From the NCBI RefSeq assembly GCF_029278605.1, contig NZ_CP119573.1, forward strand, positions 372,001 to 436,000: 64,000 nucleotides of DNA. Reading direction: 5' to 3'. Source of the stretch: Cupriavidus sp. WKF15. Lineage in GTDB: Bacteria; Pseudomonadota; Gammaproteobacteria; Burkholderiales; Burkholderiaceae. The notes beneath the pieces are model-generated. The model did no database searches, was not told the origin of the DNA, and worked only from the letters and a program-made list of their open reading frames with translations. This document shows positions 6,972-38,953 of this stretch, piece after piece. Every line of letters starts with the position of its first letter. Position 1 is the stretch's first letter. Made by a program: the position numbers and the translations under genes.

Positions 6972-7003
6972 GGCCGGCCTAGTTCGACAGAACTAGGCCG
7001 GCC
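6972..7003. repeat. 14-bp GC-rich hairpin between narK2 and narG
   Basis: GGCCGGCCTAGTTC (6972-6985), GACA loop, GAACTAGGCCGGCC (6990-7003): a perfect 14-bp stem with a 4-nt loop and no T-run after it. In an operon this suggests a partial terminator, RNA processing site or 3'-end stabiliser that would set narK versus narGHJI expression separately, rather than a full stop. Confidence 0.6.
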
Positions 7004-7138
7004 CCCGCCGACTAGCCCGAACGCACCGCGCGGCCTGTTCCACCAGCGAATTGGCGCGCACATGCCTCCCCCATAAGCTACGAGTGTCCCTGCAACGGCC
7101 GTGTGCCGCCAGCAGCTAGCATTCGCGGAGAACAAGAG

Positions 7139-28671: not shown

Positions 28672-28777
28672 TGTGGCGGGCGCCGTTGGGGGGCGCCGTG
28701 TTCTGCAGCGGCAGTCCGCCCCCTGAAGCCGCTTGTCGGCCGCACCTTGCGGGTGGAATAGGTTCCCCCGCCAGCAT

Positions 28778-29215
28778 TCAGGGTCGAAGTGGAGCGTCGC
28801 GGGCGTTCGCCCACCCCGTGCTGTCGGACAATGTTTCAATCAAGGGGCAGGACGCCTCATCGCCATTGGCCTTGCATTGCCCGATCAGATGCGTCAGTTC
28901 GGCGCGCAATCGTTCGAGATCCCTCAAACGTTGCTCCACCAGACCGAGCTTTCGCTCGGCCAGTACGCGGGCCCTGCTGCACGAGTCACCATCACTCTGT
29001 TGCAGCAGCACCCGGATTTCATCAAGGGTAAACCCGAGCGACTGGGCCCGGCGGATGAAGAAGATCCGCTTCAGGCTCGGTTGCGTATACTGCCGAATGG
29101 TTCCATTGACACGCTCCGGCACCGGCAGCAAGCCGCACCGGTGGTAGTAGCGGACCGTCTCCACGCCTACACCAGCCGCCTTGGCCAGCTTACCGATCGT
29201 CAGGGTGTGCGCCAT
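28778..29215 (-). CDS. merR: MerR family regulator with the Hg(II)-binding cysteine triad (orphan)
   Basis: 145 residues. N-terminal winged helix (about 5-72; TIGKLAKAAGVGVETVRYYHRCGLL) and dimer helix. C79, C114 and C123 have spacings of 35 and 9, identical to C82/C117/C126 that bind Hg(II) in Tn501/Tn21 MerR, and the local motif SCPLIETLS matches. Its start is 3 bp from a mer-type promoter reading the other way. No merT, merP or merA follows: the promoter is split by an IS630 element. Whether the protein still binds Hg is inferred from the cysteines. Confidence 0.88.
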   Translation of the reverse strand: MAHTLTIGKLAKAAGVGVETVRYYHRCGLLPVPERVNGTIRQYTQPSLKRIFFIRRAQSLGFTLDEIRVLLQQSDGDSCSRARVLAERKLGLVEQRLRDLERLRAELTHLIGQCKANGDEASCPLIETLSDSTGWANARDAPLRP

Positions 29216-29218
29216 CGC

Positions 29219-29245
29219 TTGACTCCGTACCGTGGTACGGAACTA
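29219..29245 (+). promoter_or_regulatory. Mer-type promoter/operator, interrupted in its -10 element
   Basis: -35 TTGACT (29219-29224) is followed by the dyad CCGTAC-CGTG-GTACGG (29225-29240), the MerR-binding site. The spacer is 19 bp, the unusual length MerR untwists. The -10 would begin at TA (29244-29245); joining it to the sequence after the IS gives TAGGCT, compared with TAAGGT in Tn501. The insertion therefore cuts the -10 hexamer. Confidence 0.85.
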
Positions 29246-29263
29246 GTCCAATGCGTCATTGAA
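29246..29263 (+). repeat. IS630 left inverted repeat
   Basis: 18-bp end, perfect match to the complement of 30340-30357, directly adjoining the TA target duplication inside the mer-type -10. Confidence 0.95.
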
Positions 29264-29294
29264 AAAGCACCCCGTTCGTGGTTAGATCGGGTGC

Positions 29295-30347
29295 ATGGGA
29301 AAAATGAATTTGACCGAGCTCGAGCGTGAACAACTGCTGGCGGCGACTCGCAGCCGAACCATTCGGGCAGCCGACGCGCGCCGGGCCAAGCTGATCCTGA
29401 TGCTTGAAGACGGCGAATCGCGCGACGCGATCATTGAGCGGCTGGGGTGCGATTCGCGTTTCATCTCGCGTTGGTCGAGTCGGTTTCTGGCCGAGCGGCT
29501 TGCAGGCTTGTACGCGCGCCATCCTGGACGAGCGCCCCTGAAGCCGCCTGAAAAGCTCGAGGCGCGTGTTCTGAGCTACACGCTCAAGCGCAAGCCCGCG
29601 GACGGGTCGACGCATTGGAGCAGCTACAAGCTTGCCGCGGAACTGGGGGATGTGTCGGTCTCGGCCGTGCAGCGCATCTGGCGCAAACATGGCGTGCGCC
29701 CGCACAGGTTGGAGCGGCACATGATCTCCAACGATCCCAACTTCGAGACCAAAGCCGCAGACGTGATTGGGTTGTATCTGAATCCGCCCGCGCATGCGGC
29801 GGTGTTCTGCGTGGACGAGAAGACCGCGATCCAGGCCCTGGATCGTAAGGACCGGCTGTTGCCACTGTCGCCAGGGCGTGCCGAGAGTCATGGCTTTGAA
29901 TACAAGCGTAACGGCACGCTCAGCCTGTTTGCTGCCCTCAACACGGCAACCGGGGAGGTGATTGGCAAGACCGCACCACGCCATACCAGCGAGCAGTTCG
30001 TGGCCTTCCTCACCGATGTTGTGGCCAGTCAGCGGCCGGAGCAAGAAATCCATGTCATCTGCGACAACGTGAGCAGCCACAAAACCGAGCGCGTGCAGAC
30101 CTTCCTCGAAGAACACCGTAACGTGCAGTTGCACTACACGCCGACTTACACGTCGTGGCTCAATCAGGTCGAGAACTGGTTCGCGCGCATTCAGCGCGAT
30201 GTGATCGCGCGCGGCGTCTTCACCTCGGTGAAGGACCTGGACCGCAAGCTGATGCGCTATATCCGTCAACACAACAAGAATCCCAAGCCAATCAAGTGGA
30301 AGTACGACGATCCATCTCGGCGAATTCGCCCGGTGCCAATTCAATGA
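29295..30347 (+). CDS. IS630-family transposase
   Basis: 350 residues. N-terminal helix-turn-helix (about 1-75; AIIERLGCDSRFISRW) and C-terminal DDE nuclease of the Tc1/mariner-like type: D174 (CVDEKT), D257 (CDNVSSHKT) and E293 (SWLNQVENWFARIQ). The D-D-34/36-E spacing fits this family. Encoded in a single frame with no programmed frameshift; the stop lies inside the right inverted repeat. It carries out excision and insertion at TA. Confidence 0.95.
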   Translation: MGKMNLTELEREQLLAATRSRTIRAADARRAKLILMLEDGESRDAIIERLGCDSRFISRWSSRFLAERLAGLYARHPGRAPLKPPEKLEARVLSYTLKRKPADGSTHWSSYKLAAELGDVSVSAVQRIWRKHGVRPHRLERHMISNDPNFETKAADVIGLYLNPPAHAAVFCVDEKTAIQALDRKDRLLPLSPGRAESHGFEYKRNGTLSLFAALNTATGEVIGKTAPRHTSEQFVAFLTDVVASQRPEQEIHVICDNVSSHKTERVQTFLEEHRNVQLHYTPTYTSWLNQVENWFARIQRDVIARGVFTSVKDLDRKLMRYIRQHNKNPKPIKWKYDDPSRRIRPVPIQ

Positions 30348-30357
30348 CGCATTGGAC
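30340..30357 (+). repeat. IS630 right inverted repeat
   Basis: TTCAATGACGCATTGGAC, the perfect complement of the left end. It overlaps the last codons of the transposase gene and is followed by the TA duplication. Confidence 0.95.
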
Positions 30358-30479
30358 TAGGCTACGTCCAAAACCCCTCAATGGGAAAGGGCAGACTGCA
30401 TTTCGATATGGAACCGGGGGCCGGAACGCCAGGGATGGTGACGTCTGCCGCCTACCGGCCGCGATGGCGAAGGGACGTG

Positions 30480-30716
30480 ATGAGTGCAGTCAAGCTGAAG
30501 TCGATCATCACCTGCCCCAAGTGCGCCTATGCAAAAGAAGATACGATGCCGACAGATGCCTGCCAGTGGTGCTATGAGTGCGAGCGCTGCCACATGTTAC
30601 TGAGGCCGAAGGCCGGTGATTGCTGCGTCTTCTGCTCATATGGGACCGAACGGTGCCCGCCCATGCAGCAGCAAACTGGCTTGTGCTGTTCGCCGGCGGC
30701 CGTCACTCGCCGCTGA
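30480..30716 (+). CDS. Small cysteine-rich GDCCVxC protein
   Basis: 78 residues with 12 cysteines: C12-x-x-C15, C28-x-x-C31-x-x-C34-x-x-C37, GDCCVFCSYG (C48, C49, C52), C59 and C69-C70. The GDCCVxC core followed by SYGT..CPP.Q defines a small family that I recall being annotated next to mercury-resistance genes, sometimes as a selenoprotein; its biochemistry is not established to my knowledge. The start has AAGGGA 5-6 nt upstream; an upstream in-frame ATG at 30381 has none. Without the IS it would be the first gene of the MerR-controlled transcript. Metal or thiol chemistry is inferred from the cysteines. Confidence 0.8.
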   Translation: MSAVKLKSIITCPKCAYAKEDTMPTDACQWCYECERCHMLLRPKAGDCCVFCSYGTERCPPMQQQTGLCCSPAAVTRR

Positions 30717-30734
30717 CGCCAGAGCCGGGGCATC

Positions 30735-30944
30735 ATGCAATCACAAATCATTCGCGTTTTTCCCCGGGAATATGGCTGGGCACTGGAGGTCGGCGACCTC
30801 AATGCAAAGGTCCAGATATTTCCGACCATGGAAGCCGCAATCGCTGCGGGTTGGGGCCTGGCGAGGCAGGAGAACGCGGAGTTGCACATACACCGCCACG
30901 ATGGGAACCTGCGCTGGCGCACCAGCGGCTGCGACCAGCACTAG
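30735..30944 (+). CDS. DUF2188-like small protein
   Basis: 69 residues. The pattern W-x-L-E-V-x-x-L-N-A-x-V-x-I-F-P-T-M-E-A-A-I-A-A-G and the ending ELHIHRHDGNL match the short DUF2188 fold, which has no assigned function. It lies 18 bp behind the GDCCVxC gene and may be co-transcribed. The ribosome site is weak. Confidence 0.6.
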   Translation: MQSQIIRVFPREYGWALEVGDLNAKVQIFPTMEAAIAAGWGLARQENAELHIHRHDGNLRWRTSGCDQH

Positions 30945-30956
30945 CCGCGGGCGCCG

Positions 30957-31172
30957 CTATCCGGCGACAGGCGGAAATACGTACCACGCGCCATCGCCAT
31001 GGCGGAAGAAGGCAATCGACAGGCGCCGCGCGGATTGGGTCGATTCGACGCACACGAGGCAACCCTTGTGGTTGGCAAGGTGCCTGAAGCAGGCAACCCG
31101 CGCCGGGCTCTCATCGCTTGGCGACAACCACTTTTCTACCTGCGCGCGTAGTGAATTCTCTGTATTGCGCAT
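30957..31172 (-). CDS. Conserved small hypothetical protein
   Basis: 71 residues from the ATG at 31172, which has an excellent GGAG 7 nt upstream; the frame continues to 31223 without one. Contains VEKWLSP, an internal CLVCVES and the C-terminal FFRHGDGAWYVFPP. Similar short proteins with this ending recur in Ralstonia and Cupriavidus genomes as far as I recall, with no assigned function. Convergent with the DUF2188 gene. Confidence 0.6.
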   Translation of the reverse strand: MRNTENSLRAQVEKWLSPSDESPARVACFRHLANHKGCLVCVESTQSARRLSIAFFRHGDGAWYVFPPVAG

Positions 31173-31373
31173 CGTGGCACTCCTTCCGAGGCACACCTCA
31201 CTGGTACCGCAAACAACTGGCACCTCCTTGATTTCAAGGTTAGATGGAGGGCCTCACCAGCGCCTTAGGCAAGGGACAACAATACGCATCGGGACGGACT
31301 GAATCGCACGTAGGAAATTCCTGACAGGAGGTGTCCAGGCACCCCGGGGCAATGTATAGGCCGTATCTGCCCT

Positions 31374-38257: not shown

Positions 38258-38776
38258 GCAAGAAGCGCGTCGCCTGGCGGCTGGCCATCAACGATGCGCT
38301 TCTTGTGTTCAAGCGGCTTTGGTCTCGCGATGCGTGGATGCCCATTCGACCCTGCTCCGATAACCGGCTCTTGTACGGTCCCCATGTAGGGCTCGGGTAC
38401 AGCGTTCCAAAAGCGTCAGTGGTGGGACGCCTGCGGCTGCGCTGCGCGCGCGTCCTAGTCGGTTTGCGACGGGCATAATCGTCGCCAGTGCCAATGGTTC
38501 GGTTTCTCTGCTTCGCTGCGGCGCGGTTTGCCTGCGGCCTGGGTGCTCAGACTAGGGCTCTGCGCGTAGCGCAGCCGAAGGCGATTACACGATGGCGGTA
38601 GCAGCAGGGGCCACGGACAGTTTCGGGGCTCGTTCAATCAGCGCTCTAATCCTGCCCACGGACGTGCACCACGCGGCAGGCAGCCGGGCACACTCTGAAG
38701 CCCATACCCGTACAACACCCTTAGCCCACTACGATCAATATTCGCCCGCTAGGGCAAGTAAACGCGCTTTTTGGTT

Positions 38777-38847
38777 ACTTTTTGTCGCTCGGACAAAAAG
38801 TGACTCGCCGGCTACGCCGGCGAAACAGCAGCGCCTGCCAAGCACGA
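38777..38847 (-). repeat. Inverted copy of the REP-like unit with its second hairpin
   Basis: Hairpin ACTTTTTGTC-GCTCG-GACAAAAAGT (38777-38801) followed by the reverse complement of the unit core (38806-38847). Together with the third direct unit it makes a long inverted repeat flanking about 520 bp. Confidence 0.85.
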
Positions 38848-38953
38848 CAAGCCAGCCTCCCCTAGGCCTACAGTTGCCCCCCTGCCGCCTCCCCCTTCTG
38901 TCCTATAGTGAAATGCCTGCGGTACGTGGGAACAAGACACAGGAAGACGCGCC

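Follow-up and report, generated by a model that had tools for sequence, protein, structure and literature searches.

An IS630-family insertion at a CTAG site overlapping the putative shared -10 element of a MerR-type promoter in Cupriavidus sp. WKF15, and its predicted consequences

Promoters of mercury resistance (mer) operons are arranged in opposite directions. The merR and merT promoters are described in passages of PMC11049809 as divergent and partly overlapping, and in passages of PMC1526738 as adjacent and contacted by one MerR. SoxR, another regulator of the MerR family, works at a bidirectional promoter according to a passage of PMC12825309, and a passage of PMC10268837 gives 18 bp as the usual spacing of the start sites at bidirectional promoters. 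For insertion sequences of the IS630 type, a preference of IS630 for CTAG is reported in the title of Tenzen and Ohtsubo 1991, a reference listed in PMC2170065. Among the titles and abstract openings returned by a literature search on insertions at mer promoters, including PMC2864759, none plainly described such an insertion.

Here we consider it quite probable, on the sequence comparisons presented below, that in Cupriavidus sp. WKF15 an IS630-family element has entered the TA within a CTAG site that overlaps a shared -10 element, TAGGCTA, between a merR-type gene and a pair of genes encoding GDCCVxC-domain and DUF2188 proteins, with consequences for regulation that we infer. This explanation, the best of those weighed, takes in the observed geometry, TA duplication, empty sites and sequence conservation, and regulatory effects that would follow from the insertion. 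The event adds a clean case to a familiar class, the disruption of a promoter by an insertion sequence.

The window, i.e., the whole 64-kb stretch of DNA that was analysed (372001-436000 of its contig), contains the -35 element TTGACT of the target promoter at 29219-29224 on the forward strand, as identified by reading of the sequence and by comparison of loci. It is followed by a 19-bp spacer (29225-29243) containing the MerR-type operator dyad CCGTAC-CGTG-GTACGG (29225-29240, no strand), which was identified by pattern searches of the window and of the genome. These three features, which the sequence-only reading had described as intact, are thus all present at 29219-29243. The -35 element together with the dyad occurred once in the window and in none of 100 shuffles, and the dyad with a TA at the correct distance occurred once in the 7.38-Mb genome, no second such operator being found in the rest of it. 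Next to the spacer lies the left TA copy of the duplication (29244-29245, no strand), where the local hexamer now reads TAGTCC. At the right junction the end of the element is followed by the second TA (30358-30359) and then by GGCTACG. The heptamer TAGGCTA at 30358-30364 (no strand), comprises the right TA copy and the stranded -10 element, which is TAGGCT on the forward strand and, if used in that direction too, TAGCCT on the reverse strand. The arrangement of a proteobacterial MerR-type promoter, with the dyad in a 19-bp spacer between the -35 and -10 elements, was found in the joined flanks and in all 18 distinct empty loci described below, and is interrupted in the window. Rfam and tRNA scans gave no match.

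When the merR side served as query, 20 of 60 genomes (the own genome included) gave a match, and besides the own genome ten of these matches were strong (E <1e-48). The Cupriavidus set comprised 21 operator loci, 18 of which were distinct over 80 bases and none of which carried the element; it omits the window, L047, L053, L056, L125 and L099, the last with a Tn501-like TAAGCT. All 18 distinct loci showed TTGACT, a 19-bp spacer and TAG(G/C/A)CTA, with TAGGCTA, TAGACTA or TAGCCTA as the heptamer. The loci were selected by the operator pattern, and invariance of the operator is therefore partly built in; the -10 element was absent from that pattern, and three loci from a scan requiring CTAG (L049, L051 and L054) were re-found without that requirement as L115, L091 and L095. 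The sequence-only reading had predicted that relatives would carry the empty site GGAACTAGGCTACG; C. yeoncheonensis (L051) reads GGAACTAGGCTATG, with 13 of 14 bases equal. It had also proposed that removing the element and one TA restores a TAGGCT -10 element, and the joined flanks indeed agree with the TAG(G/C/A)CTA of the empty loci. Because empty-site loci were found, the insertion and the TA duplication are established by comparison, beyond the evidence of the repeats alone, and the geometry and the empty loci together confirm the claimed position inside the -10 element of a real MerR-type promoter. That the junctions represent an assembly artefact or a chimera is extremely improbable: the species is represented by one genome, but both junctions show the exact CTAG arrangement of other copies of the element, and the genome is assembled in three contigs.

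The element spans 1,112 bp (29246-30357, forward strand), as delimited by a genome match and junction comparison, and is bounded by perfect terminal repeats of 18 bp (29246-29263 and 30340-30357). Its transposase frame (29295-30347, forward strand) is open and encodes 350 aa, with a match to PF13358 and a score of 248 bits against NF033545, for which the IS630 cut-off is 100. With a DDE transposase, terminal inverted repeats, TA on both sides and a single TA in the empty sites, the element has the attributes of the IS630 family, and both the family assignment and the TA duplication claimed at the outset were borne out. The inverted repeats, claimed to be perfect, are so at their 18-bp tips, with 24 matches over the first 30 positions. 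Recency of the insertion, which had been deduced from these repeats, is unsupported, because the block of internal mismatches recurs in other copies, whose tips differ by 0-3 bases; an age from the inverted repeats was accordingly rejected, and the sequence gives no date for the insertion. Besides a single full copy, the genome (7.38 Mb) gave one shorter match, of 113 bp and 81% identity. The best named matches, both for the flank and for the element, belong to Cupriavidus records. A 92% identical copy on plasmid pMTS3 of Cupriavidus sp. P-10 (L046 3001-4112) starts at the final base of a gene annotated as a CusA/CzcA efflux gene, and its junction seems to supply the stop codon there.

At 17 loci with the element or its relatives, an end was located within three mismatches in 15 (none in L083 and L086), and the distinct insertion places had CTA as the left flank in 12 of 13 cases and TAG as the right flank in 10 of 10. 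Judged by these flanks, elements of this group insert at C-TA-G. The window contains 26 CTAG sites, two of them created by the insertion, compared with 67 expected from trinucleotides. A C at -13, and hence CTAG, was present in all 18 distinct chromosomal loci of the module. Another 18 loci in the genus comprised 11 with a mer-type promoter (four distinct sequences) and seven with no promoter; ten of these 11 promoters had G at -13 and TAAGGT or TAAGCT, L018 differed, and CTAG was found there in none. In L018 and in pRA2 (L125), the likely -10 elements (TAGAGT and TAGAAT, respectively) lie at a 20-bp rather than a 19-bp spacer. The exact hit in the -10 element can be explained because the element targets CTAG, which overlaps the -10 element here, and on these sequences targeting beyond the CTAG rule is unnecessary.

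The possibility that the site is a hot spot for the element was unsupported, since seven genomes of the genus that carry a relative of nearly the full length of the element (79-94% identity), G018, G024, G028, G034, G069, G075 and G077, keep the site empty; this evidence is weak, because of the five genomes whose copies were checked for an open frame, G024 and G075 have a whole one and G018, G028 and G077 a shortened one. In 400 kb of the genome, 53 of 121 CTAG sites (44%) lay outside genes called by a crude gene-calling script, compared with 1171 of 6063 TA sites (19%); the same crude calls gave 49 of 97 for TTAG, 40 of 78 for TTAA and 109 of 903 for GTAC. The equally high values for TTAG and TTAA weakened the idea that CTAG is a specially promoter-seeking target. 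Clusters of CTAG outside called genes were observed at 6979-7012 (three sites) and 38455-38862 (four sites) of the window.

Conservation at the empty sites suggests that the heptamer has a double role. TANNNTA was present in all 18 distinct loci and the next base was conserved in 8 of 18; the sole varying column within TAG(G/C/A)CTA is G in 12 of 18. Downstream of the heptamer, six columns were conserved in 17 of 18 loci and one column in 18 of 18, and because some downstream columns are equally conserved, full conservation of the last A of the heptamer is only suggestive. The target hexamer stops one base before the end of the heptamer; on the opposite strand, the final A would provide position -12 (T) for a second -10 element. 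On the minus strand of the joined site, TTCCCA-17-TAGCCT matches 7 of 12 consensus bases (TTCCCA, 4 of 6), and TTCCCA at 30382-30387 on the reverse strand is thus a candidate, weak -35 element of the merR promoter, with a 17-bp spacer. Similar minus-strand pairs reached the score limit in only 4 of 13 relatives scanned (L037, L038, L039 and L051, with a 16-bp spacer in one), and two candidates facing merR in the left part of the element reach the same score of 7/12. Taken together, the TANNNTA heptamer probably serves as the -10 element for both strands, i.e., for merR and for the target pair, in which case the candidate merR promoter has probably been stranded too, whole but 1.1 kb from merR.

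The merR-type gene (28778-29215, reverse strand) is an open frame of 145 aa whose product matched TIGR02051 and 5crl. The score against TIGR02051, 138.8 bits, is below the cut-off of 150.85, and the product is a MerR relative outside the curated Hg equivalog. The three metal-binding cysteines are kept, Cys79, Cys114 and Cys123 aligning with those of Tn501 MerR (5crl, E 4.7e-32). In one relative (L035), merR is out of frame near the C-terminal end, giving a 306-aa frame that no longer has the second and third cysteines. Beyond the element, on the forward strand, lie a gene for a GDCCVxC-domain protein of 78 aa (30480-30716; NF041374, 100.2 bits, cut-off 40) and a gene for a DUF2188 protein of 69 aa (30735-30944; PF09954, 50.5 bits, cut-off 22). 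Literature searches on GDCCVxC and on DUF2188 with mercury found no papers. Four of 29 matches among the GDCCVxC relatives (L099, L101, L103 and L111) contain one in-frame TGA and are perhaps selenocysteine forms; L102 contains an in-frame TAG.

A mer operon would contain a merT transport gene and a merA reductase gene. One MerT query found no match in this genome, whereas the same search matched 20 of 60 genomes of the genus; a Pfam search for MerT was uninformative, as its controls were silent. None of 26 matches to the MerA model in the genome was above the cut-off. In view of these searches for MerT and MerA and of the GDCCVxC and DUF2188 genes downstream, the interrupted locus is not a mer operon. 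The merR-GDCCVxC-DUF2188 module (28778-30944 of the window) recurs in Cupriavidus at 13 loci (L032-L041, L049, L051 and L054), seven of which have GDCCVxC after the operator; in five (L035 and L037-L040) the first frame is DUF2188-like, and L049 has a GDCCVxC remnant. A check of nine loci found the DUF2188 frame in eight. In pRA2 the gene order is merR, merT, merP, GDCCVxC. The chromosomal module has the appearance of a unit derived from mer that lacks the transport and reduction functions.

Because the genome gave no MerT match and its MerA-model matches all fell below the cut-off, the effect of the insertion on the bacterium may be small. It is possible, if rather doubtful, that the insertion was neutral, the module having been, before the event, a low-output remnant of mer origin whose loss of control was costless. 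The results for MerT and MerA, the five relatives without GDCCVxC after the operator and the one with a remnant, and the out-of-frame merR of L035 are consistent with this. However, dN was lower than dS in every comparison, nine for merR (e.g., 0.135 versus 0.459 with L032), six for GDCCVxC and eight for DUF2188, and the -10 element was invariant in 18 loci, which argues that the module is constrained between species.

Under the preferred explanation, the geometry indicates that the downstream pair is likely uncoupled from MerR and mercury control. The operator and the -35 element remain beside merR and the -10 element is displaced by 1.1 kb, and MerR would be unable to activate the pair; it could still bind the operator, without a -10 element at the right distance. 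The duplicated TA would fail to rescue the promoter, as the left hexamer TAGTCC lacks a T at -7. It is very unlikely that the left junction, TTGACT-19-TAGTCC, is a working MerR promoter that drives the transposase and makes the element mercury-inducible: the duplicated TA preserves the T at -12, the A at -11 and the original 19-bp distance, but position -7 is C here, compared with T in 23 of 24 distinct sequences, the joined flanks of the window included (the exception being pRA2, L125, with its 20-bp spacer). For this reason no rebuilt mercury-driven promoter is expected.

The pair may keep weak transcription independent of mercury, either by read-through from the transposase or from the end of the element joined to TAGGCT. 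A stronger version, in which the pair is constitutively expressed from the element at a useful level and this has been selected for, appears improbable. The transposase and the pair have the same direction, TTGAAA-17-TTAGAT lies upstream of the transposase and is retained in 7 of 9 aligned copies of the element, the stranded TAGGCT has a T at -18 supplied by the end of the element, and GTGCCA-19-TAGGCT scores 7/12; however, these candidate hexamers are weak, and strong residual transcription is disfavoured because a generic promoter and terminator scan of 28700-31300 found no promoter, and no terminator either.

On the other arm, transcription from a merR promoter located beyond the element would have to cross the transposase gene in antisense on its way to merR, and the level and autoregulation of merR would be altered, merR losing its short leader and its autoregulation. 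A more far-reaching proposal, which we regard as speculative and on balance unlikely, is that one TA insertion has rewired a bidirectional MerR switch in its two directions together: the pair would be independent of mercury, the merR promoter, freed from the operator, would produce an RNA that runs antisense to the transposase and on into merR and keeps the element quiet, and the C at -13, which creates CTAG and is absent from Tn501-type mer promoters, would be a weak point of the chromosomal lineage. At this locus a divergent promoter of the MerR type has been broken naturally in a single event, and the many relatives with an empty site can act as controls; the idea of a shared -10 element therefore becomes testable outside E. 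coli. It also indicates that a CTAG-specific element can strike a -10 element to the base, as a rare target is built into the -10 element of this lineage.

In comparison with known systems, the element resembles IS630 of Shigella sonnei and ISY100, of the IS630/Tc1/mariner family, in its single transposase and TA duplication, but is a sequence of a Cupriavidus lineage, other genomes of that genus carrying its nearest copies at 92-94% identity. The target site resembles PsoxS/soxR of E. coli, as described in passages of PMC12825309 and PMC10268837, in its near-symmetric -10 element, divergent genes and MerR-family regulator bound on one side; the putative shared -10 element here differs in being recognized from sequence and in being split by an element. 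The closest likeness in sequence is to the promoter-operator of Tn501/Tn21-type mer operons, with which the locus shares TTGACT, the CCGTAC-4-GTACGG dyad, the 19-bp spacer and a merR gene in divergent orientation. The -10 element of Tn501-like promoters in the genus is TAAGGT, whereas the promoter described here has C instead of G at -13, giving CTAG, has GDCCVxC and DUF2188 genes instead of merTPA as its targets, and is interrupted by an insertion sequence.
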